Notes under the pieces: generated by a model
The model's input: only the letters and a program-made list of their open reading frames with translations
The model's database searches: none
Told to the model about the DNA's origin: nothing
In this document: in pieces, positions 23,480 to 38,247 of the stretch
How the letters are laid out: the number at the start of each line of letters is the position of its first letter
How positions within the stretch are numbered: the stretch's first letter is position 1
From: Tidjanibacter sp.
GTDB taxonomy: Bacteria > Bacteroidota > Bacteroidia > Bacteroidales > Rikenellaceae
Length of the DNA: 38,247 nucleotides
Assembly (NCBI GenBank): GCA_017390585.1
Contig: JAFPBB010000052.1
Span: forward strand, 1-38,247
Reading direction: 5' to 3'
Program-made: the position numbers and the translations under genes

Positions 23480-25513
23480 CTACGGAACGCGGATGACGGG
23501 GAACTGAATGAATACATAGTTGTCGCCGTTGGCCGTAGCCGTCGAGCGGATGCGGATGGCGCGGGTGGGGCGTCGGAGGGTGATGGTGGCACCTCCATTG
23601 TGGAGTTTGGCCACCTCGCGGAACTTCTGGCCATCTTCGCTCACCTCCACCACTCCCGAGGGGAACACTCCTCTGCAAACGTGTCGGTAGCCCGTGATGA
23701 GTTCCACCACCGCCCCACTCTTCACGCTCGAGGCAAACTCATAGAGAATCCAATCGCCCTCGCGGCAGGTACGGCTCGTGCGACACCCCCAATCGTTGGC
23801 ATAGGAGGCAATTTTATCGAGCGCTTCGGAGTTCTTCAAGGGGAGCGATGTGGAGACCTTGAGTGAGGGGGTAATTTGCCTACCTTGTGGCGGCTCCGGC
23901 GCGCCACGACGGTAGCTGATGCCCATAGCCTCCATACGCTTTTCGTGCACCTTGAGTCTTGCGGAAAACTCCTCCCAGCTGCGCGACGAAGAGGGCATCC
24001 ACCCTATTTCGGAGAGAGCACAGATGCGTGGGAAGGTCTGATACTCGAGGTAGTTGTCGTATTTATCTCGGTGAGTAACATAGAGTTCGCTCCAGAATGC
24101 ACCCGAGAAACCGATGACGTTGGACTTTGCCTTGGGGCCAAAACCGAGAGCATCGAGCGACACGGAGTAGCACTTCTTGAGGCTGATGATTCCCGCCCAA
24201 TTGTGTCCATCCTCCATCTTGCTCTGGCGCATATCGAAATAGAAATAGGGACCGGGCATAACCACCGTCGGGTAGCCCGCCTCGGCCACCTCTCGACACT
24301 GCCTCACTCCCTCCCAACCGTGGATGCGGACCTCACGCGAGAGGGTGCCTCCATTGGTGGCCTCATTCCACATCGCCGCCTTTCGTCCTCGTTGGGCGAG
24401 CATAGCGGAGAGTCGCTCCATAAAATACTCCTGCAGCTGGCTCTGGCTCGTCATCCCCCGCTCGCGGTAGAGTGCACTGCAGTGGGGGCAATCACGCCAA
24501 TAGCTCTTGTCGACCTCGTCGCCACCAATGTGTATGTACTCGGAGGGGAAGATGTCGCACAACTCCGAGATGATATCCTCGAGCAGCACGTAGTTCTCCT
24601 CCCTGGCCACACACCACACATTCTGACTCGAATAGCCCTCCGAGGCGGAGAGATCGCGCTCCACGGGGCAGAGTATCTCGGGGTGGATCTTACCGATTGT
24701 CAGACTATGACCCGGGAGGTCAATCTCGGGCACAATTTCTACGCCTCTGGCGTGGGCATAGGCCACCAGCGAGCGCAGTTCCTCCTGGGTGTAGTAGCCA
24801 CCATAGCGCTCCTCCCACTCTCCGTAGATAGCCTTCACGGGGCTATCGCCGCCACGCCAACCGCCAATTTCGGCGAGCTCGGGATGGGACTTAATCTCCA
24901 CACGCCACCCCTCATCGTCGGTGAGGTGGAGATGGAGGTGGTTGATTTTGTGGTGTGCGAGGTGGGAGATGAACTCCTCAATTTGGGGGATTGTGGAGAA
25001 TGTGCGCGCCACGTCGAGGTGCTGTCCTCGGTAGTGATACTCCGGCCAATCCACAATCTCCACGGCAGGCAGAAGGGCCACACCACGGAATGCTCCCTCG
25101 TAGACCTCGGAGGGGAAGAGCTGGAGCAACGTGTGGAATCCGTTGAGTAGTCCCGCACGATCCACACCGCGAAGTACCACCCCCTCGGGAGCGATTTTCA
25201 GGCGATATCCCTCCGCAGGAAGCCCCAAAGATGGGTCCACCGCAAGGCTCATTCGAACGGCACCAAAGCCACCGGGGAGGTAGCTACGAACATAGGCCTG
25301 TTCCTCTGCGGGGCAGAGAATCGCCACCGATTCGTCGAATCGGAACGGTTCATCCTCAACCACTTCCACACTTCGAGGCAAGGGCAGCAACCCCAGCCAA
25401 TCGTTGTCCGCCGAGGCCCCCAGAGGATTGGCGCACAGCAACATCACTATGGCCAACAACCCTCTCACCAACGTGCGACACACGCCACCACCTCCACAAG
25501 CACTACTCTTCAT
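23480..25513 (-). CDS. Secreted GH20 beta-N-acetylhexosaminidase
   Basis: GH20 enzymes remove terminal GlcNAc or GalNAc by substrate-assisted catalysis. The 677-aa product has a signal peptide (hydrophobic core LVRGLLAIVMLLCANPLGASA), a GH20b N-terminal domain (LLPLPRSVEVVEDEPFRF; GYRLKIAPEGVVLRGVDRAG), and the TIM barrel with HLDVARTF, HHKINHLHLHLTDDEGWRVEI and the catalytic pair in IHIGGDEVDK (Asp332-Glu333). It then has a C-terminal beta-sandwich (about 560-677) of discoidin-like type (VVELITGYRHV, EVSEDGQKFREVA, RPTRAIRIRSTA). It probably acts in the periplasm or at the surface. Its start overlaps the end of the upstream NamZ-like gene by 11 bases, so the two form an operon that points to amino-sugar release from peptidoglycan or related glycans. 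Confidence 0.92.
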   Translation of the reverse strand: MKSSACGGGGVCRTLVRGLLAIVMLLCANPLGASADNDWLGLLPLPRSVEVVEDEPFRFDESVAILCPAEEQAYVRSYLPGGFGAVRMSLAVDPSLGLPAEGYRLKIAPEGVVLRGVDRAGLLNGFHTLLQLFPSEVYEGAFRGVALLPAVEIVDWPEYHYRGQHLDVARTFSTIPQIEEFISHLAHHKINHLHLHLTDDEGWRVEIKSHPELAEIGGWRGGDSPVKAIYGEWEERYGGYYTQEELRSLVAYAHARGVEIVPEIDLPGHSLTIGKIHPEILCPVERDLSASEGYSSQNVWCVAREENYVLLEDIISELCDIFPSEYIHIGGDEVDKSYWRDCPHCSALYRERGMTSQSQLQEYFMERLSAMLAQRGRKAAMWNEATNGGTLSREVRIHGWEGVRQCREVAEAGYPTVVMPGPYFYFDMRQSKMEDGHNWAGIISLKKCYSVSLDALGFGPKAKSNVIGFSGAFWSELYVTHRDKYDNYLEYQTFPRICALSEIGWMPSSSRSWEEFSARLKVHEKRMEAMGISYRRGAPEPPQGRQITPSLKVSTSLPLKNSEALDKIASYANDWGCRTSRTCREGDWILYEFASSVKSGAVVELITGYRHVCRGVFPSGVVEVSEDGQKFREVAKLHNGGATITLRRPTRAIRIRSTATANGDNYVFIQFPVIRVP

Positions 25514-26678
25514 ATATCAAATAGGGTTTACGTTGTTCCACGAATCGCTCCACATCTGCGCGCCACATCGACTCGATCTCCTCGGCCCTATAGCCCATCT
25601 CTATCATATCGCGGACATAGCCCACGCCAATGAGCTTCTCGAAGTAGCTGCCAACGAAAAACTCCTCCCCCGCCTCCTTCAGCGCGTTGTGGGCCTCCAC
25701 AACATAGGAGAGGTCTATGCCGCCCATAATCAGCGAATCCACCGATGAGGCACTCAAATCCCTGCCACGACACACACTACCCAGGTGAGGCGGATTTTTG
25801 GCCCCATCGCGCTCTTCGGGAGTGAACTCCACATCGCCCTCGAGCAGGGGGTGGCCATAGAGTTGGAAGGGTCTCTCCGTGCCGCGTCCCACGCTCACAG
25901 TCGTACCCTCGAAATAGCACAGCGACGGATAGAGTGCCACCGCAACCTCGTTGGGCAGATTGGGCGAGGGAGCCACCTCGGGTGCATAGCGCATCGAGCG
26001 GCGGTAGCCAATGCAGGGGACCACCGTGAGGTCACACCTGACGCCACCCTCGAGCCACCCCTCACCGTTGATCATTCGGGCCAGCTCGCCGAGCGTCATA
26101 CCGTGAACGACAGGGATGGGCAGCATACCCACAAAGGAGCGATACTGCTCCTCGATGATGGGTCCGTCGACATACATACCATTGGGGTTGGGCCTATCGA
26201 GAATCACCACGGGGACACCCACATCGGCACAAGTCTGGAGGGTGAGGTAGAGAGTGGAGATGTAGGTGTAGAATCTCACGCCCACATCCTGAATGTCGAC
26301 CACAATCACGTCGCACTTGAAGATGTCGTTGGCCTTGGGAGCCTTCGAAGCACCATAGAGCGAGATGATCTCCACGCCCGTGTAGGCATCGCGTGAGGAG
26401 GGCACAAACTCACCCGCATCGGCCTTGCCACGGAAGCCGTGTTCGGGAGCAAAAATGAGTTTGACATCCACGCCGCAACTCAGGAGCGTATCGACCAAGT
26501 GGCGCCCACCGATGCGAGCCGTGTGGTTGGTTAGGACCCCCACTCGCTTACCTTCGAGCAGGTGGCCATACTCGTCAATGCGCTCGTCGCCCAGAACGAT
26601 GCGCCCCTCAGGCTCCACCGCCACAACGAGGTGGAGGGTAAGAAGGAGCAATATGGTGGTCAAACAGACTCTCTTCAT
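25503..26678 (-). CDS. namZ: NamZ-type exo-beta-N-acetylmuramidase (DUF1343, GH171)
   Basis: The 391-aa product has a signal peptide (MKRVCLTTILLLLTLHLVVA) and the DUF1343 fold now known as family GH171, whose studied member NamZ removes terminal MurNAc from peptidoglycan glycans. Family motifs seen are RVGVLTNHTARI, LIFAPEHGFRG (Glu79 is the likely catalytic residue by analogy), VDIQDVGVRFYTYISTL, VILDRPNPNG, PIPVVHGMTLGELA, PSPNLP and CYFEGTTVSVGRGTE. It is the first gene of a two-gene operon with the GH20 hexosaminidase (11-base overlap). Known NamZ systems pair it with a NagZ-type glucosaminidase; here a GH20 enzyme could fill that role. The substrate is inferred from the family. Confidence 0.9.
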   Translation of the reverse strand: MKRVCLTTILLLLTLHLVVAVEPEGRIVLGDERIDEYGHLLEGKRVGVLTNHTARIGGRHLVDTLLSCGVDVKLIFAPEHGFRGKADAGEFVPSSRDAYTGVEIISLYGASKAPKANDIFKCDVIVVDIQDVGVRFYTYISTLYLTLQTCADVGVPVVILDRPNPNGMYVDGPIIEEQYRSFVGMLPIPVVHGMTLGELARMINGEGWLEGGVRCDLTVVPCIGYRRSMRYAPEVAPSPNLPNEVAVALYPSLCYFEGTTVSVGRGTERPFQLYGHPLLEGDVEFTPEERDGAKNPPHLGSVCRGRDLSASSVDSLIMGGIDLSYVVEAHNALKEAGEEFFVGSYFEKLIGVGYVRDMIEMGYRAEEIESMWRADVERFVEQRKPYLIYEE

Positions 26679-26731
26679 TGTGATGTGCTATTTATTTTTC
26701 ACAAAATTAAACATTTTTTTGACGAAAAGAG

Positions 26732-26739
26732 TATCTTTG
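26732..26739 (+). promoter_or_regulatory. Putative -7 element of mazG
   Basis: TATCTTTG matches TAnnTTTG. It lies 47 bases before the mazG ATG and downstream of the namZ start on the other strand, so the control regions are divergent. A T-run ending in G just upstream (26714-26721) is too close to be the -33 element. Confidence 0.55.
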
Positions 26740-26786
26740 TGGAATATAAACAGAGTCTAACCACAACAAAAAAGGATACAACGAAT

Positions 26787-27584
26787 ATGTACGAGAAGAA
26801 ACTTGAGGCCACGGCCCGCCTGCTCGAGGTGATGGACACCCTCCGAGAGAAGTGCCCCTGGGATAGGGAGCAAACCTTCGAGAGCCTCCGCAGCAACACC
26901 ATCGAGGAGTGCTTTGAGCTGGTCGATGCCATCACGGACAAAAATATGGAGGGTATCCGCGAGGAGTTGGGCGACCTGCTGCTCCACATCGTTTTCTACT
27001 CCAAGATGGGCCAGGAGCAGGGCAAGTTCGACTTTGCCGATGTGTGCAACTATCTCTGCGACAAGCTCGTCTATCGCCATCCCCACGTCTATGGCGACGT
27101 CCACGCCGACAACCCCGAGGAGGTAATCCACAATTGGGAGATGCTCAAACTCCGCGAGAAAGCTAAGAAGGAGCGCAAGGCCGCAGGAGGCGTTCTCTCT
27201 GGCGTGCCCCGCAGCCTGCCCGCAATGGTCAAGGCCTTCCGCATCGGTCAGAAAGCCGCATCGGCAGGTTTCGACTGGGAGAAAAAGGAGGACGTATGGG
27301 ACAAGGTGAAGGAGGAGATTGCAGAGGTGGAGACCGAAATTGCCAATGCCGACAAGGATAAACTCGAAGGCGAAATCGGCGACCTCTTCTTCTCGCTCAT
27401 CAACGCCTCGAGGCTCTATGGCATCGATCCCGAGACAGCCCTCGAGAGGACCAACAAGAAGTTTATGGCCCGCTTTTCGCACATCGAAAAGGGAGCTGCC
27501 GAGCTCGGCAAGGGGCTGGGAGAGATGAGCCTCGATGAGATGGAGACCCTCTGGCAGCAGGCCAAAGGAATCAAAAACGAATAA
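26787..27584 (+). CDS. mazG: Nucleoside triphosphate pyrophosphohydrolase MazG
   Basis: MazG hydrolyses NTPs and dNTPs to monophosphates and pyrophosphate, cleaning the pool of abnormal nucleotides. The 265-aa product has the two tandem MazG domains typical of the housekeeping form. The first has EKCPWDREQTFESLRSNTIEE and EELGDLLLHIVFYSKM. The second has KVKEEIAEVETEI and EGEIGDLFFSLINASR. The acidic ExxE and ExxD metal-binding residues are present in both. The ATG at 26787 begins the conserved part; the open frame extends upstream through the promoter and is not coding there. It lies 25 bases before the gamma-carbonic-anhydrase-like gene, likely co-transcribed. Confidence 0.95.
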   Translation: MYEKKLEATARLLEVMDTLREKCPWDREQTFESLRSNTIEECFELVDAITDKNMEGIREELGDLLLHIVFYSKMGQEQGKFDFADVCNYLCDKLVYRHPHVYGDVHADNPEEVIHNWEMLKLREKAKKERKAAGGVLSGVPRSLPAMVKAFRIGQKAASAGFDWEKKEDVWDKVKEEIAEVETEIANADKDKLEGEIGDLFFSLINASRLYGIDPETALERTNKKFMARFSHIEKGAAELGKGLGEMSLDEMETLWQQAKGIKNE

Positions 27585-27609
27585 TTCACAACACAACAAG
27601 CAGAAAGAT

Positions 27610-28155
27610 ATGGCAATCATTAAGAGTGTGAGGGGTTTCACCCCCAAGATCGGTAAAGGATCGATGGTGGCAGAGAACGCAACCATCGTTGGAAATGTGG
27701 AGATCGGCGAGGAGAGCAGCATCTGGTTTGGTGCGGTGATTCGTGGCGACGTCAACGCCATCCGCATCGGCAAGCGCTGCAACATCCAAGACGGAGCCTG
27801 CCTCCACGCCACCTACGACCTCTCGCCCCACCCCTCGGTGACCATCCTCGGTGACGGCGTGAGCGTGGGCCACAACGCCATCATCCACGGCGCACAAATC
27901 GGAGATGGGTGCCTGATTGGTATGGGTGCAACTGTGCTCGACAATGCAAAGGTTGGAGAGGGTTGCATCATCGCTGCCAACGCACTCGTAACAGCCAATT
28001 CGGTGTTGGAGCCCGGCGGCCTCTATGCAGGTGTTCCCGCCAAGAGGCTCAAGGAGGTCACCCCCGAGCAGCGAGTGAACACCCTCGAGCGCACCACCCG
28101 CGACTATATGCACTACGCGTCGTGGTTCCCCGAGTACTACGTCGACGAGGAGTAG
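27610..28155 (+). CDS. Gamma-class carbonic anhydrase-like protein
   Basis: A 181-aa left-handed beta-helix protein of the gamma carbonic anhydrase-like family (YrdA/PaaY type). Hexapeptide repeats run from residue 10 to about 145 (ENATIVGNVEIGEESSIWFG; NAIRIGKRCNIQDGACLH; VSVGHNAIIHGAQIGDGCLIG). The three metal-binding His are plausibly those of CLHAT and VGHNAIIHG. It ends with a helical tail. Trimers with metal at subunit interfaces are typical. Whether it has CO2 hydration activity cannot be told; many family members are of unknown substrate. Start at 27610 gives MAIIKSVRGFTPKIG, the family start. It follows mazG by 25 bases. Confidence 0.88.
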   Translation: MAIIKSVRGFTPKIGKGSMVAENATIVGNVEIGEESSIWFGAVIRGDVNAIRIGKRCNIQDGACLHATYDLSPHPSVTILGDGVSVGHNAIIHGAQIGDGCLIGMGATVLDNAKVGEGCIIAANALVTANSVLEPGGLYAGVPAKRLKEVTPEQRVNTLERTTRDYMHYASWFPEYYVDEE

Positions 28156-28263: not shown

Positions 28264-29469
28264 ATGAACAGACGAGAACAATATCGCAAAGTGGCGATCA
28301 ACATACTGATATCCATCGTTATATCGATGGTGCTCAACTTTGCATACTTCGTGTTCCTAATGGTCGGCCCCAACCGCGAACCCGCACCCAAGGAGCCACC
28401 ACGGGTTGAAGTGGAGAACAAAGCCGAGGCAAAAAAGGTGGTCGAAAAGCTCACCGAGGTGGAGGTCGACTCCCTGAAGAGCCGCCTGATAATCCGCGAG
28501 GAGAATCTGGTGAAGCAAAGCGCACAGCGCAATCAGCCCAACCCTCTCGCCTCCTCCACAGGTACGCTCTTCATCATCCTCGACCTCTTCTTCTATGCGG
28601 CAGTCTCGATGGCATTCCTCTCGATTATGACCTCGCCGCGCCATTGGAAGCGCAGGAATAGGTATGGCCGCAGGGTGGCGGCGTGCATCATCCTACTGCT
28701 GCCCATCTACTTCCTGGCTCCACAGCTCACTTGGAGGGGCGAGATTGTCACCACGGCCCACGTTCTCTTCAGGCTCAATGCGCTGACCATTCTCAAGCTC
28801 GCCACCACCTTCATCATCGCCATCCTCTACGGCAAAATCTATGAATTGCTCTACACCAAGCAGTCCATAGAGATGGAGAACGAAATGCTCAAGAACGAGA
28901 ATCTCACCTGGCAGTACAACACGCTCATCAATCAGGTCAATCCCCACTTCCTCTTCAACTCGCTCAACTCGCTCTCGATGCTGGTGCGCGAGGAGAAGAG
29001 TGAGGATGCACTCACCTACATCTCCCGAATGAGCGACACCTATCGCTACATCATCGAAGAGGGCAAAGTGGAGCGAACCACCGTGGCCGACGAACTGCGC
29101 TTCCTGGAGGCCTATCGCTATCTGCTCGAGGTGCGCTACGCAGGCAAACTCCACATCAACGTCGAGGTGGACCACGCCTACGACGACTATGAGTTGCCCC
29201 CTCTCTCCATCCAACCGCTCATTGAGAATGCCGTTAAACACAACGCCATCACCTCCTCCAAGCCGCTCAACATCGACATCCACACCGAGGGCGACTACAT
29301 CGTAGTCTCCAACCCCATCCACCCCAAACTCCAAAAGGAGGAGAGCACGGGTATAGGTCTGGGCAACCTCTCGAGCCGCTACGAATTGGTCATAGGCCGC
29401 AAGGTGGAGGTCGAGTGTGACAACAACATCTTCCGCGTACGACTCCCTCTAAACCGCCCCACACGATGA
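28264..29469 (+). CDS. LytS/YehU-type sensor histidine kinase
   Basis: A 401-aa membrane sensor kinase. The N-terminal part has hydrophobic helices near residues 10-35, 95-120, 137-155 and 168-190, with a charged extracytoplasmic segment (about 36-90, KEPPRVEVENKAEAKKVVEK region) that could be the sensing part. A coiled coil (about 195-220) leads to the His_kinase domain with NPHFLFNSLNSL (phosphorylated His228), then an ATPase domain with LPPLSIQPLIENAVKH (N box) and GIGLGNLSSRYEL (G box). It overlaps the LytTR regulator gene by 4 bases (ATGA), so they are translated together. The genes downstream, a cysteine-array lipoprotein and an outer-membrane barrel, are its likely targets. Confidence 0.93.
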   Translation: MNRREQYRKVAINILISIVISMVLNFAYFVFLMVGPNREPAPKEPPRVEVENKAEAKKVVEKLTEVEVDSLKSRLIIREENLVKQSAQRNQPNPLASSTGTLFIILDLFFYAAVSMAFLSIMTSPRHWKRRNRYGRRVAACIILLLPIYFLAPQLTWRGEIVTTAHVLFRLNALTILKLATTFIIAILYGKIYELLYTKQSIEMENEMLKNENLTWQYNTLINQVNPHFLFNSLNSLSMLVREEKSEDALTYISRMSDTYRYIIEEGKVERTTVADELRFLEAYRYLLEVRYAGKLHINVEVDHAYDDYELPPLSIQPLIENAVKHNAITSSKPLNIDIHTEGDYIVVSNPIHPKLQKEESTGIGLGNLSSRYELVIGRKVEVECDNNIFRVRLPLNRPTR

Positions 29470-30209
29470 AAGCAATAATCATTGAGGACGAGACCGCTGC
29501 CGCACGCAACCTCAAAGTGCTGCTCGCCTCCTCCCATCCCGAAATAGACATAGTGGCCACGCTCGAGAGCATCGAGGAGAGCGTCGAATGGTTCGGAAAC
29601 AATCCGGCCCCCGACTTGGTCTTTATGGACATCCATCTGGCCGACGGCAATGCCTTCCGCATCTTCGACACCACCGAGATTGCCGCACCTATTATATTTA
29701 CTACCGCCTACGACCAATATGCCCTCGAGGCATTCAAGGTGTGTGGCATCGACTACCTGCTCAAACCCCTCAAAGCCGAAGAACTCGAGAGGGCCATCCG
29801 CAAGTTCACCTCGCTCACCTCGGCAGGCAGAGGCGACTACAACCGCCGCGTGCAGGATATGGTCGAAAAGAGCCGCAGTAGGACCCTCCTGGCCAAAGTG
29901 CGCGACAAACTCATCCCCATTGCCGAGGGCGAGATAGCCTTCTTCTACACCTCCAATGAGCAGGTGTGCGTCACCACCATTGATGGTAAGACCTACCCCA
30001 TAGACGGCACTCTGGAGGGAATCTATGGAGAGTATGGCGGTGAGCAGTTTTTCCGTGCCAACCGCCAATTCATCGTCGCCCGCAAAGCCATCCGCGACAT
30101 CTCCGTGTGGTTTGGCAGCAGGCTCTCCGTCAACCTTACGGTGGCCACGCCGGAGCGAATAATCATCAGCAAGGCCCGCTCGTCGGAATTCAAGGAGTGG
30201 CTGAGGTAG
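29466..30209 (+). CDS. LytTR-family response regulator
   Basis: A 247-aa regulator. The receiver domain (about residues 1-120) has the acidic pair in IIIEDE, the phosphorylated Asp55 in LVFMDIHL, the Thr of IIFTTAYDQYA and the Lys of YLLKPL. The C-terminal LytTR DNA-binding domain (about 145-245) has KLIPIAEGEIAFFYTSNEQV, FFRANRQFIVARKAIRDI and a basic end. LytTR proteins bind pairs of direct repeats about two helical turns apart, and just such a pair (21-bp offset) lies right after this gene at 30227-30264. It is coupled to the kinase gene by a 4-base overlap. Confidence 0.94.
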   Translation: MKAIIIEDETAAARNLKVLLASSHPEIDIVATLESIEESVEWFGNNPAPDLVFMDIHLADGNAFRIFDTTEIAAPIIFTTAYDQYALEAFKVCGIDYLLKPLKAEELERAIRKFTSLTSAGRGDYNRRVQDMVEKSRSRTLLAKVRDKLIPIAEGEIAFFYTSNEQVCVTTIDGKTYPIDGTLEGIYGEYGGEQFFRANRQFIVARKAIRDISVWFGSRLSVNLTVATPERIIISKARSSEFKEWLR

Positions 30210-30226
30210 GTATTTCGCCAACGAGG

Positions 30227-30264
30227 TTGGTCGGTTCACCCCCTATTTTGGTCGTTTCACCCCC
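30227..30264 (+). promoter_or_regulatory. Tandem direct repeats, probable LytTR operator
   Basis: TTGGTCGGTTCACCCCC (30227-30243) and TTGGTCGTTTCACCCCC (30248-30264) differ at one base in 17 and are offset by exactly 21 bp, two helical turns. This is the known geometry of LytTR operators. They lie 31 bases upstream of the -7 element of the Cys-rich gene. No TTTG is found at the -33 position, as expected for a promoter that needs an activator. Confidence 0.65.
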
Positions 30265-30294
30265 ATCGTGGCTCCATCTGGGGCCACGTTGTGC

Positions 30295-30302
30295 TATCTT
30301 TG
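30295..30302 (+). promoter_or_regulatory. Putative -7 element of the Cys-array gene
   Basis: TATCTTTG matches TAnnTTTG. The leader to the ATG at 30369 is about 60 bases and A-rich. It stands downstream of the tandem direct repeats, in the intergenic gap after the response regulator. Confidence 0.6.
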
Positions 30303-30368
30303 TAATCGTAGAGAAGTGTGAACACGAAAAAAATAACAATACAATAAACCTCCAAAAAACTTACAACT

Positions 30369-31307
30369 ATGAAAGCCATTCAGAAAGTTCTTATCGCGGC
30401 AGCAGCCGTATTGGCAATGACCGCTTGTTCGGCACAGGACAAACCCAAATTCAACGAGAAAGAGTATGCAGAGCGCAAGACCGAGCGTCTGGACGCCATC
30501 GTAGACCTCACCGACGCACAGGAGAAAGAGGTCTATGCCGTATATCTCCAGCAGGGTCAGGACATCAAGAAACATATCAAGGCTATGAAGAAAGAGGCTT
30601 GCGATATGAAGCGTCCCGACGGCAAGAAAGCTGACTGCAAAAAAGCCGAGTGCGACAAGGCTAACTGCACCAAGAAAGCAGAGTGCAACAAAGCTGACTG
30701 CAAGAAAGATTGCGCCACCTGCACCAAGAAAGCAGAGTGCAACAAGGCCGACTGCAAGAAAGATTGCGCCACTTGCGACAAAAAAGCTGAGTGCAAGAAG
30801 GCTGACTGCAAAAAAGATTGCGCCACCTGCACCAAAAAGGCAGAGTGCAACAAGGCCGACTGCAAGAAAGATTGCGCCACTTGCGACAAAAAAGCAGAGT
30901 GCAAAAAGGCTGAGTGCGACAAAGCAAAATGCACCAAGAAGGCTGAGTGCAACAAGGCTGACTGCAAGAAAGATTGCGCTACTTGCGACAAGAAGGCTGA
31001 GTGCAAAAAAGCTGACTGCAAGAAAGATTGCGCTACCTGCGACAAAAAAGCTGAGTGCAAGAAAGGCGAGTGTGACAAAGCTAAATGTGACAAAAAGGCT
31101 GAGTGCGACAAGGTGAAATGCGACAAGAGAACTCCTCGCAAACCCCACTTCAAACACAACCCTGAAGCGCGCAAAGCTCACTTCGAGAAACTCAACACCA
31201 TCCTCACCCCCGAGCAGGTGGCAAAACTCAAAGAGCACCACGCAAAACGCTTTGAGCACGCACACAAAGCACAGCAGTGCTGCCCCACCGAGAACTGCCA
31301 GAAATAG
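30369..31307 (+). CDS. Cysteine-array lipoprotein with Spy/CpxP-like ends
   Basis: A 312-aa protein with a lipoprotein-type signal (VLAMTAC, lipidated Cys20). Residues 30-75 are helical with an LTDAQ motif (47-51); residues 252-300 are helical, His-rich, with LTPEQ (279-283). Such LTxxQ helices occur in Spy/CpxP-type periplasmic proteins, including DUF4890 of Bacteroidetes. Between them residues 90-251 hold 35 Cys, almost all others being Lys, Ala, Asp, Glu, Asn and Thr. Through most of the array the Cys spacing repeats as 6, 5, 4, 3 (period 18; for example Cys118, 124, 129, 133, 136). The tail adds QQCCPTENC. No aromatic residue lies in the array. Metal binding or thiol buffering in the envelope is inferred. 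It follows a two-component system and a probable operator, and is 75 bases from the outer-membrane barrel gene. Confidence 0.9.
   Translation: MKAIQKVLIAAAAVLAMTACSAQDKPKFNEKEYAERKTERLDAIVDLTDAQEKEVYAVYLQQGQDIKKHIKAMKKEACDMKRPDGKKADCKKAECDKANCTKKAECNKADCKKDCATCTKKAECNKADCKKDCATCDKKAECKKADCKKDCATCTKKAECNKADCKKDCATCDKKAECKKAECDKAKCTKKAECNKADCKKDCATCDKKAECKKADCKKDCATCDKKAECKKGECDKAKCDKKAECDKVKCDKRTPRKPHFKHNPEARKAHFEKLNTILTPEQVAKLKEHHAKRFEHAHKAQQCCPTENCQK
30666..31130 (+). repeat. 54-bp tandem repeats inside the Cys-array gene
   Basis: Units of 54 bp start at 30666, 30720, 30774 and 30828, with two further full units and diverged half-units after an insertion. They encode the 18-residue period of the protein. 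Adjacent copies differ mainly at third positions and in Asn/Lys or Thr/Asp swaps, so the array has been kept under protein-level constraint while likely expanding and contracting by slippage or recombination. Confidence 0.85.
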
Positions 31308-31315
31308 GTTTTTCG

Positions 31316-31348
31316 CCCCTGGCAATCCCCTGGCAATCCCCTACCAAT
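31316..31348 (+). repeat. Three 11-bp direct repeats before the outer-membrane gene
   Basis: CCCCTGGCAAT twice, then CCCCTACCAAT, in perfect 11-bp phase, one DNA turn each. They occupy the 75-base gap between the Cys-array gene and the barrel gene, 34 bases before its ATG. A weak -7-like TAGTTTTT lies at 31352-31359. They could be a binding site or simple slippage. Confidence 0.5.
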
Positions 31349-31382
31349 CAATAGTTTTTAGAAAACGATAATCAGACACACA

Positions 31383-34274
31383 ATGAATAGGCTGATAGCA
31401 CTTATCGGTACACTCGTTCTGGGCATTGGAACTTCCTTTGCCCAGACGACGGGTGTCCTAAGAGCAACCCTCAACGACAGCAAAACCGGCGAAGGAATCA
31501 ACGGCGCAGTGATAGAACTCACCAATAGCGCCAATGGCAAACAGCAGTACTACACCTCCGGCTACCAAGGCAAAATCGAGATCAAAAACCTCACCACAGC
31601 CACCTACCAGATGGTTATCACCTATCTCGGCTACAAGGACTACAAGCAGGAAGTGAAGATCAAGGCCGGTAACAACAACCTCGGAACAATCAAGTTCGAG
31701 GAGGACGCCACCATCATCGACCAAGTGGAAATCAAAGGTTTCCTCGGCACCTCACAAAAGGGTGACACCGTGAGCTACAACGCCTCGGCCTTCAAAACCG
31801 TGCGCGACGCAAGCGCAGAGGGCCTGCTGGCCAAAATGCCCGGCATCACCGTCAACTCCGACGGCTCGGTGGATGCACAGGGCGAGTCGGTGGGTAAGGT
31901 ATTCGTGGATGGCAAAGAGTTCTTCGGCGACGATGTGGCCACCACCATCAAAACCATCCCCGCAGAGATGGTCTCCAAAGTGGAGGTCTACGACAAACTC
32001 TCCGATAAGGCAGAGTTCACGGGTCTCGACGACGGCGAGGGCTACAAAGCCATCAACATCGTCACCACCCTCGGCAAACGTAAAGGAGTGTTTGGTAAGG
32101 TCTACGGCTCCTACGGCTACCCCGATAAGTACAGCCTCGGTGGCAATGCCAACATCTTCCACGGCGACGAGAAAATCTCCATCATCGCTATGGCCAACAA
32201 CATCAACCAGCTCAACTTCTCCTTTGAGGATATCGTGGGCGCAGCGTCCTCCGCTCAAGGCGGCGGTGGTGGCGGCGGTATGGGCCCCGGAAGAGGTATG
32301 GGTATGGCACGCAACTTTATGGTGCGCCCAATGTCGGGCATCTCCACGGTGCAGTCCATCGGTCTGAACTACGCCAACCAATGGGAGAAGCTGGAGCTCC
32401 AGAGTAGCTACTTCTTCAACCACACCAGCACCATCAACCACAACACTCGCGACCGCATCTCCTACGCAAGCGACAACTACAGCGAACACTCATACAGCGA
32501 GAGCGACTCCGAGTCGGAGAACTGGAACCACCGTCTCAATCTGCGCTTGGACTACAAGTTCAGCAAAACGCAGTCGCTGATGGTGCGCGCCAACGCAAGT
32601 CTCCAGCAGTATGAGAGCCTCAACACAGGTAACGAGCTCATCTCCAACAACATCACCGGCGAGAATCTCAAGCAGATGACCTCCCAGCAGAATGACGACC
32701 GCGTGGGTACCTATGGCAACGTCTTTGCCCTCTATCGCACCCGTCTCGGCAAGCCAGGCAGAACTGTGACGGTCAACTCCAGGGTGAATTGGAACAGCTC
32801 GGAGAGCAACCAACTCCCCATCTACACCTACACCATCCCCGCAGACTCGGTCTACAAGAATATCATTGAGCGCATCTCGGGTAGCAACAGCGTCAGGGCC
32901 GAGGTCACCTACACCGAGCCCTTCAGCGAAAAGGCACAGATGGACATCGAGTATGAGTTCCAGCACAACCTCAACGACCAGAACAAGACCACCGAGGTCT
33001 ATATCAACAATGTCCTCGACCCCACTCTGGGTACACTTATGACCAACATCTCGGAGAGTGGCTACACCACCCATCGCGTGGGCCCCGGCTTCAACTACTC
33101 AACAGAGATGACCAAGTTCAACTTCCAGTTGCGCTACCAACACTCCTCGCTCAACAATGAGCAGACCCTCCCACGTCCTCTCTCGCAGAGCTACAACTTC
33201 AACGACCTGACCTATAGGGGTAACTTGACGGTCAACTTCAACAAGACCAACGTATTGCGTGTGAGAATGCACTCCCGCACCCAGAACCCCTCCATCAGTC
33301 AGTTGCAGGACATAACCGATGTGAACGGCACCAGCTACACCGCAGGTAACCCCGACCTCAAGCCCAGCTACTCACACCAGCTGATGACCTTCTACACCAA
33401 CACCAACATCGAGAAAGGACGCACACTGATGTTGCACGCAGGTATGTGGGCCACCACAAGGTCTATCGCCTCGGCAATGCAGATGAACAACCCCGGATTT
33501 GTCATCCCCGGCTACAATGGTCAGACCCTCGGCGTGGGCAACACCTACAGCACCTACGAGAACATCTCCGGCGCCAACAACTGGAACCTCTTTGCAGGCT
33601 TCAGTCTCGGCTTCCCCATCGAGGTGCTCAAGAGCAACCTCACCTTTGGTGTCAACACCAACCTCAGCAGCTCGCCCAGCAAAATCAACAACTACCTCAA
33701 CATTATGCGCGGCCAGAGCTACTCGGGTAACATCCAGCTCGGTAGCAACGTCTCGGAGAACTTGGACTTCACCCTCTCCTACAACATCAGCTACTCGCTC
33801 AACGACAACAAGTCGGAGCTCCACACACAGCACAACCGCTACTTCAACCACAGCGCAAGAGCCGACCTGAAGTGGATCGCCTGGAAGGGCTTCACCCTCA
33901 CCGCCAACGGTACCTACAACCAATATAAGGGTATTACCGACAACTACAATGAGGAGATTCTCTTGTGCAATGCCTACATCGGCAAGAAACTCTTCAAGGA
34001 TGAGAGGGGTGAGTTGAGCATCGGTGTCAACGACATCTTCAACCAGAATCGCGACTTCCGTCGCAACGTCGGCACCAACTACATTGAGAATACCACCAAC
34101 CTCGCCATCGGCAGGTATGTGGCCGTACAGTTTGTCTACAACATCCGCGCCTATGGCAAGGGCTCCTCTGCCCGCGACTTCGACAATATGGGAATGGGCG
34201 GCGGTATGGGCCCCGGAGGCGGTATGGGCCCCGGCGGAGGCAGAATGCGTCCCCACGGCGGTATGCACCGATAG
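31383..34274 (+). CDS. Outer-membrane beta-barrel protein with Gly/Met-rich segments
   Basis: A 963-aa protein with a signal peptide (MNRLIALIGTLVLGIGTSFA), a carboxypeptidase-regulatory-like beta-sandwich (about 25-105: VLRATLNDSKTGEGINGAVIEL, YQMVITYLGYKDY), a TonB-receptor plug-like domain (about 115-225: GDTVSYNASAFKT, LLAKMPGITVNSDGSV, GKVFVDGKEFFGDD) and a large C-terminal barrel like the Bacteroidetes outer-membrane barrel family related to TonB-dependent receptors. A Gly/Met-rich loop (about 292-320: GGGGGGGMGPGRGMGMARN) and a similar C-terminal tail (MGPGGGMGPGGG, ending PHGGMHR) are unusual and could bind metal ions (inference). I see no clear TonB box. It follows the Cys-array gene and is closed by two terminators, so the two are likely co-regulated by the upstream kinase/regulator pair. 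Confidence 0.88.
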   Translation: MNRLIALIGTLVLGIGTSFAQTTGVLRATLNDSKTGEGINGAVIELTNSANGKQQYYTSGYQGKIEIKNLTTATYQMVITYLGYKDYKQEVKIKAGNNNLGTIKFEEDATIIDQVEIKGFLGTSQKGDTVSYNASAFKTVRDASAEGLLAKMPGITVNSDGSVDAQGESVGKVFVDGKEFFGDDVATTIKTIPAEMVSKVEVYDKLSDKAEFTGLDDGEGYKAINIVTTLGKRKGVFGKVYGSYGYPDKYSLGGNANIFHGDEKISIIAMANNINQLNFSFEDIVGAASSAQGGGGGGGMGPGRGMGMARNFMVRPMSGISTVQSIGLNYANQWEKLELQSSYFFNHTSTINHNTRDRISYASDNYSEHSYSESDSESENWNHRLNLRLDYKFSKTQSLMVRANASLQQYESLNTGNELISNNITGENLKQMTSQQNDDRVGTYGNVFALYRTRLGKPGRTVTVNSRVNWNSSESNQLPIYTYTIPADSVYKNIIERISGSNSVRAEVTYTEPFSEKAQMDIEYEFQHNLNDQNKTTEVYINNVLDPTLGTLMTNISESGYTTHRVGPGFNYSTEMTKFNFQLRYQHSSLNNEQTLPRPLSQSYNFNDLTYRGNLTVNFNKTNVLRVRMHSRTQNPSISQLQDITDVNGTSYTAGNPDLKPSYSHQLMTFYTNTNIEKGRTLMLHAGMWATTRSIASAMQMNNPGFVIPGYNGQTLGVGNTYSTYENISGANNWNLFAGFSLGFPIEVLKSNLTFGVNTNLSSSPSKINNYLNIMRGQSYSGNIQLGSNVSENLDFTLSYNISYSLNDNKSELHTQHNRYFNHSARADLKWIAWKGFTLTANGTYNQYKGITDNYNEEILLCNAYIGKKLFKDERGELSIGVNDIFNQNRDFRRNVGTNYIENTTNLAIGRYVAVQFVYNIRAYGKGSSARDFDNMGMGGGMGPGGGMGPGGGRMRPHGGMHR

Positions 34275-34368: not shown

Positions 34369-34415
34369 GTCCCGCCGAGTGGCATAACATAGGGATGGGA
34401 GCCACAGAGGACATG

Positions 34416-34448
34416 AAAAAAGGAGAGAACGTTGTTCTCTCCTTTTTT
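34416..34448 (+). terminator. Second terminator, bidirectional
   Basis: Perfect stem of AAAAAAGGAGAGAAC with GTTCTCTCCTTTTTT around a GTT loop. The A-run and T-run make it work on both strands. It marks the end of the chromosome-like block before the AT-rich island. Confidence 0.85.
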
Positions 34449-34779
34449 GCGTACCCCCAAGCAATCTGTTTTCGAACGAATTTTTAGAGGACTTAGAGAA
34501 ACTATGGGAATTGCGACACTACTTCCCCATCCCAAAGAAATGACACCTCTGTAATACTGCGGTGCAAGGGTATATTGCGGAATGTGGTTGAGGTAAGGGA
34601 GGGGGTGCCAAGGGGTTGCGATGGTATCCGCCCTCTTGCAATTCCTCGGAGAGGTAGGTGTGAAAGCCTATACACTGTTCGTTACGAGAAGCCTGTTTGG
34701 TGAGAGGGTGAAAATAAATTTTACTACTCTTACTAACTTTTCCATTCTTACTGATATTTATATATAAAACACAATCAGT
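34449..34779. other. Gene-free boundary of the AT-rich island
   Basis: About 330 bases with no supported gene. A minus-strand frame crosses part of it but runs antisense through the next gene and has no promoter. The GC-rich stretch 34590-34690 contains short inverted segments (TTGCGATGG and the TTGCAATTCC area). From 34700 the sequence becomes AT-rich and leads into the next gene. It may hold the left end or origin of an integrated element, but no attachment repeat was identified. Confidence 0.4.
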
Positions 34780-35038: not shown

Positions 35039-35971
35039 GTGATTAAATTAGACAAAATAAAATTAGTAACACACATTGATTATATACAAATTGATAATGA
35101 GAATGCTTTTGAAAAAATAATAAGAAACAACAACATAGTTCAATTAAAATATCATCAACAAATTCCTTCTTTATATATTGAATTGGATTTTTTAGACAAT
35201 GAATTAGTAATTGAATTTTCGGGAAAGATACTCGGTAAAGATTACCACAAACTAATTTCAAAAGATACAATCAAACAATGTTTTGAAAACATAAACTCAA
35301 TAGGCATTTGCACTCTTAATGTGGAGTGTATCCTGAATGATAGCGTGGTGGTGAAATGCGATGTAACCCACGATGTTGTGTGTGAGGATATACCTCAATT
35401 AACTGCCTTCGTGAGCGGGAACATTTGTAGTTACAGGAACTATGTGTGCCGACAAATGAGAAATGGGAACTTTGTGGTGGAAAAGAATGTTACCACCAAA
35501 CAATACAAAAAGCGACTAACTATATACGATAAGGATAAAGAGATGAAGAAAAACGAGAATAGGAGATTTGCGAGGGAATACGATGTTGATGAGAGTGTGT
35601 TTAAGAGTAAATGTCGATTCGAAATGAACCTCAACAGTGTGGCTCAGATAAAGTCCGCACTTGGAATCGAGAGCAACGATTTGCAGAGCGTGCTCGGAGC
35701 CCAGAGGAATCCCATTGCAGAGTTTTTAGGGGAGGTGATTGCCGATGGTGCAGCGAGTGTTGGGGGTGAACTCTCACCCAAAGATGCGTATTTGATACCC
35801 CTTGTGTTGAAGGATTGCAATTACGACTTGGCACAGGTTGAGGCAAAGATGCGCTCCATCTACTCGAAAGGTACCAACATCTCAAAGATTATGAAGCCCT
35901 ATCGAGAGGCACTGTTTTCCATCCAACACCCCACCATCAGCAAAGAGAAGATTATCCAAATGCTCACATAG
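35039..35971 (+). CDS. Replication-initiator-like protein (filamentous phage II/X type)
   Basis: A 310-aa protein starting with GTG at 35039, which immediately precedes the conserved-looking start (IKLDKIKLVTHIDYIQI); no ATG in frame fits. The N-terminal half resembles phage/plasmid replication proteins of the gene II/X group of filamentous phages, with the late motif YKKRLTIYDKDKEMKK followed by RFEMNLNS, where family members have a tyrosine near a K-rich strand and an R-x-E strand. The C-terminal half (from about residue 205) is different and GC-richer, with DLQSVLGAQRNPIAEFLGEV and SKIMKPYREALFSI. It would nick DNA to start rolling-circle replication of an integrated phage or plasmid. No coat or secretion genes are seen, so a satellite or remnant is more likely. 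The assignment is moderate. Confidence 0.6.
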   Translation: MIKLDKIKLVTHIDYIQIDNENAFEKIIRNNNIVQLKYHQQIPSLYIELDFLDNELVIEFSGKILGKDYHKLISKDTIKQCFENINSIGICTLNVECILNDSVVVKCDVTHDVVCEDIPQLTAFVSGNICSYRNYVCRQMRNGNFVVEKNVTTKQYKKRLTIYDKDKEMKKNENRRFAREYDVDESVFKSKCRFEMNLNSVAQIKSALGIESNDLQSVLGAQRNPIAEFLGEVIADGAASVGGELSPKDAYLIPLVLKDCNYDLAQVEAKMRSIYSKGTNISKIMKPYREALFSIQHPTISKEKIIQMLT

Positions 35972-36008
35972 TGTGTTAAAATAAAAATGTGTCAATTTAA
36001 TCAACAAA

Positions 36009-36029
36009 GGGGAGGTTGTGAGCCTCCCC
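36009..36029 (+). terminator. Hairpin between convergent island genes
   Basis: GGGGAGG pairs with CCTCCCC around a TTGTGAG loop, 37 bases after the replication-like gene and before the stop of the minus-strand gene. The T-run is weak. A second tiny palindrome (AACCTAAAAGGTT) overlaps the stop of the minus-strand gene. Confidence 0.6.
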
Positions 36030-36054
36030 ATTTGTATCAATGTAACCTAAAAGG

Positions 36055-36984
36055 TTATTGACTATTTCTAATTGTTTCGCAAAGGTTGTCAATTGCGGGC
36101 TGCATCACCTCATTGTATACTTCGGGGAATAGTCGCATATAATATTCTTGTCCTACACATTTTACAAATATGGAATCAAATTGACTCTCTGTTTGGTTGA
36201 GTGCTTCCACAATGCTCTTACTTGCATTACATCTCAACGGCAGTGTCTGCTGATGAAAATATGTTTTTGTTTTTTGCAATTTATCCCAATACTCGACAGC
36301 AATCTCCATCGGAAAGTTTGAGTTAATTCGAGAACCAGTTTCCTCATTCCAATCCCCGATATTGGCACGATGATAGAGATTATTGATATATTCCCAATCT
36401 ACCGTTGAGTAATCATACAACATTACTATATCATCATGTTCTTGAAAACGGACATCCTTGTTATTTTTAAACGAACAGAGAGAGCACAACAAAGCAAATA
36501 GCGCTATGGTTATTGAACACCATGACAAGTATGTTTGTTTTTTCGCTTCTGCCAATTCAAAACTAATAAACTTGTTTTTAACCCATTTCTTTACTCGTGG
36601 GTGAACCCAAAGTTGAAGATTGTGATGTTCGAGTATGTATTTTTCGACACCTCCGGATATTTTTACAGATTCACCCTCGAAAGTACTTTCTGGCACTCCC
36701 TTTGGAATACTAGCAAAATTTGTTTGAGGATTTGCTTGTTCATAAAATTGAATTACCTGTTCTTTTTCAAAAAGTTTGATATGCCAAATTACATCTACGA
36801 TAATGTGATAAGCATTCAACGCATCGGCAGAATAAATACAAAGAACATTATCTTTGTGTAATATCTTTATGTTGTGATACACACATATATCCTCTAACAA
36901 TGTATGTAGAGTGTGAGGATGATGAATGTCGTCATAATATTTGCACAGTAGTTTCCCTATGAGTTTTCGAATATCCTGTTTCAT
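36055..36984 (-). CDS. Unrecognised membrane protein of the island
   Basis: A 309-aa protein I do not recognise. Residues 1-140 are soluble-looking, with many His and Tyr (DDIHHPHTLHTLLEDICVYHN) and a basic stretch before the membrane. One transmembrane helix lies near 152-170 (SITIALFALLCSLCSF). The last 130 residues are again soluble and contain Asp/Tyr-rich sequence (DDIVMLYDYSTVDWEYINN). Without a signal peptide the C-terminal part is probably outside the membrane. It is AT-rich and on the same strand as the two genes upstream (70-base gap), so it is likely the last of a three-gene unit. A -7-like TATCTTTA at 37038-37031 could also drive it alone. Confidence 0.6.
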   Translation of the reverse strand: MKQDIRKLIGKLLCKYYDDIHHPHTLHTLLEDICVYHNIKILHKDNVLCIYSADALNAYHIIVDVIWHIKLFEKEQVIQFYEQANPQTNFASIPKGVPESTFEGESVKISGGVEKYILEHHNLQLWVHPRVKKWVKNKFISFELAEAKKQTYLSWCSITIALFALLCSLCSFKNNKDVRFQEHDDIVMLYDYSTVDWEYINNLYHRANIGDWNEETGSRINSNFPMEIAVEYWDKLQKTKTYFHQQTLPLRCNASKSIVEALNQTESQFDSIFVKCVGQEYYMRLFPEVYNEVMQPAIDNLCETIRNSQ

Positions 36985-37054
36985 GTTTTATCTGTTTTGA
37001 CATCTCCCACCTTAGTTATGTGTGGATTTGTAAAGATATATTCTTCGCACACTA

Positions 37055-37516
37055 TTACCACCATCCAGCAAGCCATCCATACAAAAATGCGATTGCGGTT
37101 GGTATTAATATTGAACCTATTATCAAAATTGTGTAACAATGTTTTGATGTCATAAACCTATCCCATCCAGTTTGTTCTTGCGGAATATGTGTATTAGATA
37201 TGTTATCAAATAGTTTATGTATGAATTTACCCATGGCATTGTGCTGGGCAGTGGTATCCCAGTTCGCTTCTGCCCAATCAAAAAACTGAGCAGTCAGGGT
37301 TGTTTGCACATCATCTATTCTAAAAAGATTAATACGGACAGTACAATAATATGCCCCCATCTGCGTTACGTGGAAAATCATAGTTCCAGCATCAGGATTT
37401 GCCTCAATAAATTTAAGATAACAAAGCATTCGTGTTGTCGTCTTGCTGTGTTGAATTAAGCGAGTAAAACATTCATCGTATGGTAAATTGATGGTTCTTT
37501 GAATAGTTTTTTTCAT
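37055..37516 (-). CDS. Unrecognised small protein with C-terminal membrane anchor
   Basis: A 153-aa protein. Residues 1-90 look like a small alpha/beta domain (MKKTIQRTINLPYDECFTRL, DAGTMIFHVTQMGAYYCTV) that could be a START/SRPBCC-like ligand-binding fold; that is a guess. Residues 130-153 form one transmembrane helix (YTILIIGSILIPTAIAFLYG) ending in GWLAGWW, a tail anchor that leaves the domain in the cytoplasm. It starts 11 bases after the stop of the zinc-ribbon gene, so the two are one operon. Confidence 0.6.
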   Translation of the reverse strand: MKKTIQRTINLPYDECFTRLIQHSKTTTRMLCYLKFIEANPDAGTMIFHVTQMGAYYCTVRINLFRIDDVQTTLTAQFFDWAEANWDTTAQHNAMGKFIHKLFDNISNTHIPQEQTGWDRFMTSKHCYTILIIGSILIPTAIAFLYGWLAGWW

Positions 37517-37527
37517 AATAAATTTGT

Positions 37528-38247
37528 TTAATTACATTGAGTAAAATAAAACGCAAGAATGGAGATGGCGCACAAACAAAGATTTTTTATCCATGCTTTA
37601 AGTTTTTTCCCCCCTTCTTCATCTTTCTGATTTGTTAACAGTCCTTCTGCATTGGTACGAAGCCCTTTTTGTGGGAATAAATTTGTGAGACATTCGTATT
37701 GATTTTTACCTTCTATTTCAAACAGGATTTCTGATATCATTTGACTTGCTGTTTCGTAGTCCCCTCCAAAATCAATCATATAATTAGTTGCACAGATGGA
37801 TTCTGTGGGAGTGAACAGAGCGAAGCAAGTCATATTTTTAAACTTATTAAGTTTGCGAGTTGCCTCATTTGCAACATCAATATCTGTACTTCTAACTGCA
37901 AATGGAATACGAATGGTTATTCCATGTTCGCTGTTTGGGGTGAATTTTGCACCAATAGATTCATATCCAAAATTTGCTTTATCTGATGGGACAATTTGAT
38001 AATTCTCTCCCGAAGAACTAATTATCTCCGTGATAACTATTTCCGACTCAGAAGCAGCCTTTTGTAGTATGAGATTGTTTTTGAGAGCCATTTCAAGTCC
38101 CTCAATCACATCTGCCGCTTTGCCATATTTGGTTTTGTCAATGGAGAGTCCTTTATCCACGAATCTCACCAACATAGAACCACAATACTCGCAATTGTGT
38201 CTATTTTGTGTGTTAGCCCCACAGTTGGGGCAAGTGATTGTATTTAC
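37528..38247 (-). CDS. Zinc-ribbon protein with C-terminal membrane anchor (5' end outside window)
   Basis: The frame stays open to the window edge. An internal Met at 38175 could be mistaken for the start, but 24 codons upstream encode a zinc ribbon, CPNCGANTQNRHNCEYCGS, with two CxxC knuckles, so the true start lies beyond the edge (probably only a few codons away). The rest is a soluble alpha/beta domain of about 170 aa I do not recognise, and a C-terminal hydrophobic helix (LCLCAISILAFYF). Zinc ribbon, domain and tail anchor suggest a membrane-bound cytoplasmic protein. It is AT-rich, upstream of and 11 bases from the START-like gene. Confidence 0.65.
   Translation of the reverse strand, partial: VNTITCPNCGANTQNRHNCEYCGSMLVRFVDKGLSIDKTKYGKAADVIEGLEMALKNNLILQKAASESEIVITEIISSSGENYQIVPSDKANFGYESIGAKFTPNSEHGITIRIPFAVRSTDIDVANEATRKLNKFKNMTCFALFTPTESICATNYMIDFGGDYETASQMISEILFEIEGKNQYECLTNLFPQKGLRTNAEGLLTNQKDEEGGKKLKAWIKNLCLCAISILAFYFTQCN

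Follow-up and report, generated by a model that had tools for sequence, protein, structure and literature searches.

Gene content of the locus

We analyzed a stretch of Tidjanibacter sp. DNA of 38,247 bases (the window; GenBank assembly GCA_017390585.1, contig JAFPBB010000052.1, C40 in our numbering), which belongs to a 1.75-Mb assembly that is 84.7% complete. On its + strand it encodes a sensor histidine kinase, which we take to be of the LytS type, a LytTR response regulator, a lipoprotein with a dense cysteine (Cys) array and a Spy-like core, and a large outer-membrane beta-barrel (Table 1). Comparison with relatives indicates that the array is a lineage-specific remodeling of a Spy-type protein that stands in a conserved locus behind a putative dedicated operator. 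A preliminary description of the window had claimed the kinase/LytTR pair, the lipoprotein and the barrel with its Gly/Met-rich loop and tail; open reading frames (ORFs) and Pfam recovered all four genes, the loop and tail were found, and the count of 35 Cys in 162 residues between the motifs LTDAQ and LTPEQ was reproduced.

The pair has the marks of a LytS/LytTR system by Pfam, namely a His_kinase domain, a Response_reg plus a LytTR domain, and adjacent genes, here sharing 4 overlapping bases. By hydropathy the kinase has four hydrophobic segments, with a loop of ~57 amino acids (aa) between segments 1 and 2, and NPHFLFN is read at residue 226. The lipoprotein has the lipobox MTAC with the lipid-anchor Cys at C20 and contains 40 Cys in all. 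Its array holds six copies of the 18-aa unit [TD]KKAEC[NK]KADCKKDCATC, and in DNA it is a tandem repeat of a 54-bp unit (7.4 copies, score 484). We ruled out that the array is an artifact of chance or of a wrong frame, since it is open, repeated and found again in other genomes of the genus, and likewise a c-type haem carrier, the lipoprotein having no CxxCH motif.

Table 1. Features of the locus in the window
Feature	Position	Strand	Basis or detail
LytS-type (presumed) sensor histidine kinase	28264..29469	+	Pfam His_kinase 4.5e-20; hydropathy
LytTR response regulator	29466..30209	+	Pfam LytTR 1.4e-15, Response_reg 2.1e-12
Putative tandem LytTR-type operator, two GGTCGnTTCACCCC repeats, period 21 bp	30229..30264	+	Pattern and matrix scans
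Presumed Bacteroidota-type -7 element TATCTTTG	30295..30302	+	45 bp past start of second repeat
Cys-array lipoprotein, Spy-like core with insert	30369..31307	+	312 aa; profile match to slot family
First LTxxQ motif, LTDAQ, residues 47-51	30507..30521	+	Read from sequence
Cys array, C90 to C251	30636..31121	+	35 Cys in 162 residues
Second LTxxQ motif, LTPEQ, residues 279-283	31203..31217	+	Read from sequence
OMP_b-brl_3 outer-membrane beta-barrel with CarboxypepD_reg N-domain	31383..34274	+	Pfam E 4.4e-26 and 1.4e-9
Gly/Met-rich stretch of barrel, residues 286-311	32238..32315	+	Read from sequence
Gly/Met-rich C-terminal tail of barrel, from residue 935	34185..34271	+	Read from sequence
Hairpin with T-run, probable terminator	34413..34452	+	-20.7 kcal/mol, z -4.9

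A probable tandem operator ahead of the lipoprotein gene

Between the regulator and lipoprotein genes lie two GGTCGnTTCACC repeats, 21 bp apart, and a TAnnTTTG box begins 45 bp after the start of the second; we assume this box to be a -7 element of the Bacteroidota type. In the window, the pattern GGTCRNTTCRCCCC has 2 matches where shuffles average 0.15, yet 2 of 100 shuffles also gave two. The exact pair occurs once in its own 1.75-Mb genome and the reversed control pattern not at all. When up to 3 mismatches are allowed, 12 of the 23 genomes of the genus carry the pair, with 15 of the 16 matches at this locus and the sixteenth elsewhere in G241; the reversed control gave 2 matches in the 23 genomes, both in G240. 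All nine genomes that encode the array carry the pair at this locus at that threshold, and three genomes have an overlapping third repeat.

A weight matrix built from 10 sites of genus loci, which the genus loci therefore match by construction, found the pair followed by the -7 box at 43-47 bp in 45 of 61 loci (46 of the 61 real loci in a recount with locus ends included, the first count having skipped the last bases of each locus). Outside the genus the combination is present at 28 of 41 loci, 17 of them with a score of at least 15, and controls gave 0/61 in one letter shuffle and in each of 5 dinucleotide shuffles. G231 has a different gene arrangement, with the lipoprotein and barrel genes adjoining the kinase and regulator on the opposite strand; there, too, the operator precedes the lipoprotein. 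A passage of PMC4847170 describes LytTR sites as, in general, pairs of 9-11-nt repeats separated by 11-13 nt. Direct repeats of this length and spacing, at a putative target promoter, are what is read at 30229-30264, so the probable tandem operator of the preliminary description appears to take the form of a dedicated LytTR operator.

A conserved locus with the array confined to one clade

Of 268 Rikenellaceae genomes searched, 211 have the kinase at E 1e-60 and 128 the barrel at E 1e-140. For the comparison of gene order, we took 40 loci from outside the genus, picked non-randomly from the kinase and barrel lists, plus that of G137, and added the genus loci. Kinase, regulator, and barrel stand together at 28 of these 41 non-genus loci, the other 13 having part of the set. 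The slot that the lipoprotein gene occupies in the window holds a Spy-like protein without the array at 21 of the 28, and at the remaining seven either no gene was found there (G219, G187, G251, and G046) or a different gene is present (G181, G182, and G184). On this comparison, the kinase, LytTR regulator, and barrel are a conserved Rikenellaceae locus.

Within the genus, the Cys-array lipoprotein is encoded in 9 of 23 genomes (G000, G231, G233, G234, G238, G239, G240, G244, and G245), while eight others (G228, G229, G230, G236, G241, G246, G247, and G249) encode kinase, regulator, and barrel but yielded no slot protein, and G248 is the sole classed genome with a Spy-like protein lacking such an array; five (G232, G235, G237, G242, and G243), in which contigs end or the genes are unlinked, were left unclassed. 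Among the array genomes, six of nine carry the set on a single contig, that of G238 breaking off within the barrel gene; in G239 and G240 the set is split by a contig end, and the contig of G244 stops inside the lipoprotein gene. The tabulation of neighbors proposed in the preliminary description thus places the partners of the array gene beside it in nine genomes as far as the contigs reach, and, judged by gene order, the four genes belong together. In a tree of the regulator and kinase core (27 rows), these nine genomes group together (support 100/100). A mobile cassette was ruled out for the array gene, which keeps one conserved place and whose genomes make up this single group. Searched against named genomes, the N-terminal part of the lipoprotein matched nine loci: six from Tidjanibacter, labeled as from goat, sheep, water deer, and yak gut, one from a Rikenellaceae bacterium, and two weak ones from Flavobacteriales (31-33% identity).

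Spy ancestry of the slot protein

Scored by itself, the window lipoprotein is below the Pfam cut-off for every Spy-type family (best Metal_resist, 14.6 bits versus 29.2), and so is its orthologue at L103. Four of the eight slot proteins tested outside the array clade do pass the cut-off for DUF4890, LTXXQ, or Metal_resist, and a profile of 19 slot proteins, searched against PDB, matches Spy (3oeo, E 1.8e-7) and, more weakly, CpxP (3itf, 0.034); with signal peptides removed, a profile of 15 of the 19 gave 1.1e-4 and 0.004, respectively. The N-terminal part of the array lipoproteins in turn aligns with the slot family in hhalign (97.6%, E 2.6e-12), over the first LTxxQ segment only. Because this alignment included the signal peptides, it was repeated without them, giving 95.7% and E 8.4e-9. 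By profile comparison, then, the window lipoprotein is homologous to proteins of known Spy fold in two steps, by way of the slot family. The earlier label "Spy-like" therefore holds through the relatives and the slot profile and fails on the window protein's own Pfam score, and the comparison with relatives favors the accompanying view of a Spy-type core with an expanding Cys-rich insert.

The lipobox pattern fits none of the 19 slot proteins, whereas among six array lipoproteins with a complete start it fits five, the sixth (G233) having MMSC; hence lipid anchor and array both mark the clade. Slot proteins outside the array clade have at least 3 Cys in 10 of 26 cases and at least 9 His in 4 of 26. 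In this set, the slot length of G264 is too short owing to the start rule, and the slot row of G153, taken from a wrong frame, was left out of the signal count.

Composition and length change of the array

Cys makes up 19-24% of the array in all nine orthologues (G239, G240, and G244 being incomplete), and the spacers between Cys are mostly of 3-5 residues and in none of the nine of 0 or 1. The lipoproteins of G233 and G234 are identical at their two ends, over 95 and 58 residues, and differ in total length, 271 versus 313 residues; by this measure, array length changes fast. In shorter Cys-anchored units from six genomes, ratios of synonymous to nonsynonymous differences range from 0.67 to 3.04 versus ~0.19 expected. 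A PDB search with the lipoprotein gave Cellophane-induced protein 1 as its sole match (E 0.022) and no Csp protein.

Similar arrays on other exported proteins

The peptide pattern KAECxKAxC occurs in 14 of the 268 family genomes, seven of the own genus and seven of one other genus, with 0 matches for the reversed control; the match in G235, a single unit in an ORF without further array, was judged to be chance and dropped, and a Cys-rich stretch in G102 was left out of the carriers as a contig-end fragment. In a sample of 374 genomes of the order, a search of the DNA for this pattern hit the own genome alone. An array protein widespread in Bacteroidales was ruled out, since matches came from just 2 of 393 order genomes (the own one and that of an aldose epimerase carrier), and viral contigs gave no match to the peptide patterns used.

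Six carriers of the other genus (G028, G042, G044, G062, G077, and G117) are small lipoproteins that consist of little more than a lipobox and an array, as is one of G032 found by a separate search, and C-C pairs occur in some of their arrays. Similar arrays also appear in an MFS transporter of G033 (L098:7445-9190), with 26 Cys in a predicted periplasmic loop between hydrophobic segments 7 and 8, and at the C terminus of both a META-domain lipoprotein of G074 (L101:3117-3842) and an aldose 1-epimerase lipoprotein of G474, from another Bacteroidales family (L153:451-2073). Ten of these other carriers had their start read: nine are lipoproteins by lipobox, and one has the predicted periplasmic loop. 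The preliminary description had counted an array gene scattered without its neighbors as evidence against itself; similar arrays do stand on other exported proteins without those neighbors, but the array lipoprotein keeps them. It is possible, at somewhat less than even odds in our view, that Rikenellaceae use an exported, mostly lipid-anchored Cys array as a thiol or metal sponge that arose on several unrelated exported proteins, and that the Tidjanibacter-like clade built it into a LytS/LytTR circuit with one promoter, where the sensor's own accessory protein would be the sponge.

The seven small lipoproteins (L188-L193 and L100; one at L190:5794-6138) have 92-140 aa and 12-28 Cys. By eye, a ubiE-like gene or an FtsX-like permease lies near all seven (confirmed by Pfam in G044 only, and some 4 kb off in G028).

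The barrel and the flanking genes

OMP_b-brl_3 was recognized in all 20 barrels scanned, and the tails read in six relatives are Gly/Pro-rich with Met. The window barrel scores 22.5 bits against the TonB_dep_Rec barrel family, whose cut-off is 27. The preliminary description had the barrel moving the ligand of the array. This idea found no support, because the barrel is present with no slot protein in 8 of 23 genus genomes and the slot proteins of other genera lack such an array; the function of the barrel is thus not tied to the array. A PDB search with a profile of array-clade barrels returned nothing informative.

The hairpin listed last in Table 1, chosen by eye and absent from the pattern-scan list, probably closes the unit. 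An 11-bp tandem repeat, CCCCTGGCAAT (2.5 copies, 31316-31342), lies between the lipoprotein and barrel genes. Ahead of the kinase, at 25503-28155, the window encodes a NamZ-type exo-N-acetylmuramidase, MazG, and a hexapeptide-repeat protein, and mazG and the hexapeptide-repeat gene precede the kinase and regulator in many relatives (seen by eye, no count made). Past the hairpin, at 35039-38175, are ORFs of no assigned family, including one of 310 aa at 35039 without a Pfam match; they are possibly a separate island.

Proposed mechanism and alternatives

We propose, with a probability of roughly 0.55, that the locus is a LytS/LytTR circuit with one target promoter, in which a Spy-type output has turned into a lipid-anchored Cys array for soft metals or thiol-reactive compounds. 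The kinase would sense an envelope signal, and the LytTR regulator would bind the tandem 21-bp repeats and activate a unit of the Spy-type protein and the OMP_b-brl_3 barrel. Variation is concentrated in the Spy-type protein, which in relatives resembles a soluble periplasmic accessory protein of the CpxP and ZraP kind; in the Tidjanibacter-like clade it has a lipid anchor and an expanding Cys array between its two LTxxQ segments. At the membrane, the array Cys would stay reduced and trap copper(I), zinc, cadmium, mercury, or other thiol-reactive compounds, and the array protein may feed back on the kinase. At the level of sequence the circuit is well supported, as comparison among relatives brings out the gene set, the operator and promoter geometry, the Spy-family ancestry, the single clade, and the fast change in length at a kept Cys density. 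Binding and activation by the regulator, the nature of signal and ligand, and any part that the barrel may have in moving the ligand are inferred. Among possible roles for the array, metal or thiol trapping ranks first, and placing metal ahead of other thiol-reactive ligands is our judgement.

The locus could instead be a nutrient switch, which we think rather unlikely, in which the LytS/LytTR pair senses a small molecule and activates the barrel as a transporter, the Spy-like protein being a holdase for barrel precursors and the array a side matter of one clade. Such a switch would suit the greater constancy of the barrel as a partner, given the eight genus genomes and the seven of 28 non-genus loci without a Spy-like slot protein, and it would suit the operators found apart from that protein: in G228, G229, G246, G247, and G249, none of which yielded a slot protein, the kinase is preceded by a weaker pair (scores 11.0 to 19.8), and in G041 and G065 (L132 and L133), where the kinase is on another contig, an operator-like pair (21.3) and a -7 box stand before the barrel gene. 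YpdB offers a precedent, having one target and a pyruvate response in the account given in part of PMC4847170. However, transport by the barrel is conjectural, since Plug was recognized in 2 of 20 barrels (E 0.01), the window's not among them, and PDB matches better than 0.01 are confined to the N-domain (collagen-adhesion, 0.0002, then SusC-type N-domains, 0.001-0.0025); a nutrient switch also leaves unexplained both the repeated Cys/His tails of the slot proteins and the sustained Cys content (19-24%) of the array.

The array may also be a redox or electrophile buffer, its thiols being consumed by oxygen, polysulphide, hypohalous acid, or electrophiles, or forming disulphides in a cross-linked stalk, but this we again regard as improbable. 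The dense exported Cys and the lipid anchor of the clade agree with such a buffer, as do spacers mostly of 3-5 residues, without classic metal clusters. The oxidase VKOR was found in none of the 23 genus genomes by a search that was positive in 3 of 14 named control genomes and did not cover DsbA/DsbB, which fits reduced array thiols and suits both the proposed circuit and this buffer. Against a buffer of this kind, easily closing CxxC pairs are few outside the window (1 in G231, 2 in G238, and none in the other six arrays), and the Cys plus His tails of slot relatives favor metals. A neutral expansion, in which replication slippage lengthened a Lys/Cys-rich linker of the Spy-like protein and the Cys are functionless, draws on the 54-bp tandem repeat, the array length differences between near-identical relatives, and Cys codons identical in DNA among the compared units, which recent copying would explain as well, but it is very doubtful in view of the Cys density maintained across the clade and the recurrence of KAECxKAxC on different exported carriers.

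Several observations count against the proposed metal or thiol circuit. Pfam recognizes no sensor domain in the window kinase, whose loop by hydropathy ranges from ~12 to >100 residues across relatives, and it recognizes no known metal gene among the scanned flanking genes. The lipoprotein of G244 carries just 8 Cys ahead of its LTPAQ motif, although its contig ends inside the gene. Array length drifts between near-identical relatives; therefore, part of the array may be neutral. The six 18-aa window units show 65 synonymous versus 8 nonsynonymous pairwise single-base codon differences (8 codon columns vary synonymously alone and 2 in amino acid), but because these units were selected by amino-acid pattern and their Cys codons are all TGC, the ratio is uninformative on Cys and at best points to constraint on the neighboring residues. 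The array thiols could be oxidized, DsbA/DsbB having lain outside the VKOR search. Finally, metallothioneins have C-x-C and C-C clusters as their hallmark, and the likeness to them drawn in the preliminary description is loose, with no C-C or C-x-C in any of the nine arrays (three cut by contig ends).

Among the literature matches listed (titles and abstract openings), none describes a LytTR/Spy/barrel locus or a Cys-rich LTXXQ lipoprotein, in line with the earlier view that a chaperone core with a Cys-array insert is an undescribed combination. To our knowledge, dense exported Cys arrays are unusual in Gram-negatives, where metallothioneins are mostly cytoplasmic. If soft metals bind to the array, gut anaerobes would have in it a metal or thiol buffer on the envelope side that evolves by repeat expansion on a chaperone core, and a LytS/LytTR envelope circuit would gain an assayable output. 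With the operator conserved, one gel shift and one reporter could test the circuit, and a single genus that holds the locus with and without the array provides a natural comparison.

Comparison with known systems

Copper is held by Cys ligands in Csp1. A passage of PMC7558416 presents Csp1 as an exported bacterial copper protein that holds 13 Cu(I). Csp1 carries a Tat signal and folds as a four-helix bundle, whereas the array lipoprotein has its lipobox at C20, no twin Arg as read, and tandem repeats. The bacterial metallothioneins SmtA and MymT are Cys-rich and known to bind soft metals, as is proposed for the array lipoprotein; they are small proteins, while here the array Cys sit on an exported lipoprotein with a Spy-type core and without C-x-C.

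According to part of PMC4847170, YpdB of Escherichia coli binds GGCATTTCAT repeats and has one target gene. YpdA/YpdB resembles the present unit in being a LytS/LytTR pair with direct repeats of the GGCATTTCAT type and one target; that target is yhjX for YpdB, and here it would be the Spy-like protein with the outer-membrane barrel.

The CpxRA-CpxP and ZraSR-ZraP systems of E. coli and Salmonella, like this unit, join a two-component pair to an exported target of the Spy/CpxP type. Unlike them, the unit described here has a LytS-type kinase, a LytTR regulator, and a large outer-membrane barrel and, in the array clade, a lipid anchor and a Cys array; for the kinases and regulators this contrast assumes that CpxA/CpxR and ZraS/ZraR are of other types. 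The signaling role of CpxP is considered mainly negative in a passage of PMC6737893, and ZraP is termed, in a title in the reference list of PMC6737893, a chaperone and repressor of the zinc-responsive ZraSR. We take the unit to be an envelope circuit of the CpxP/ZraP sort.

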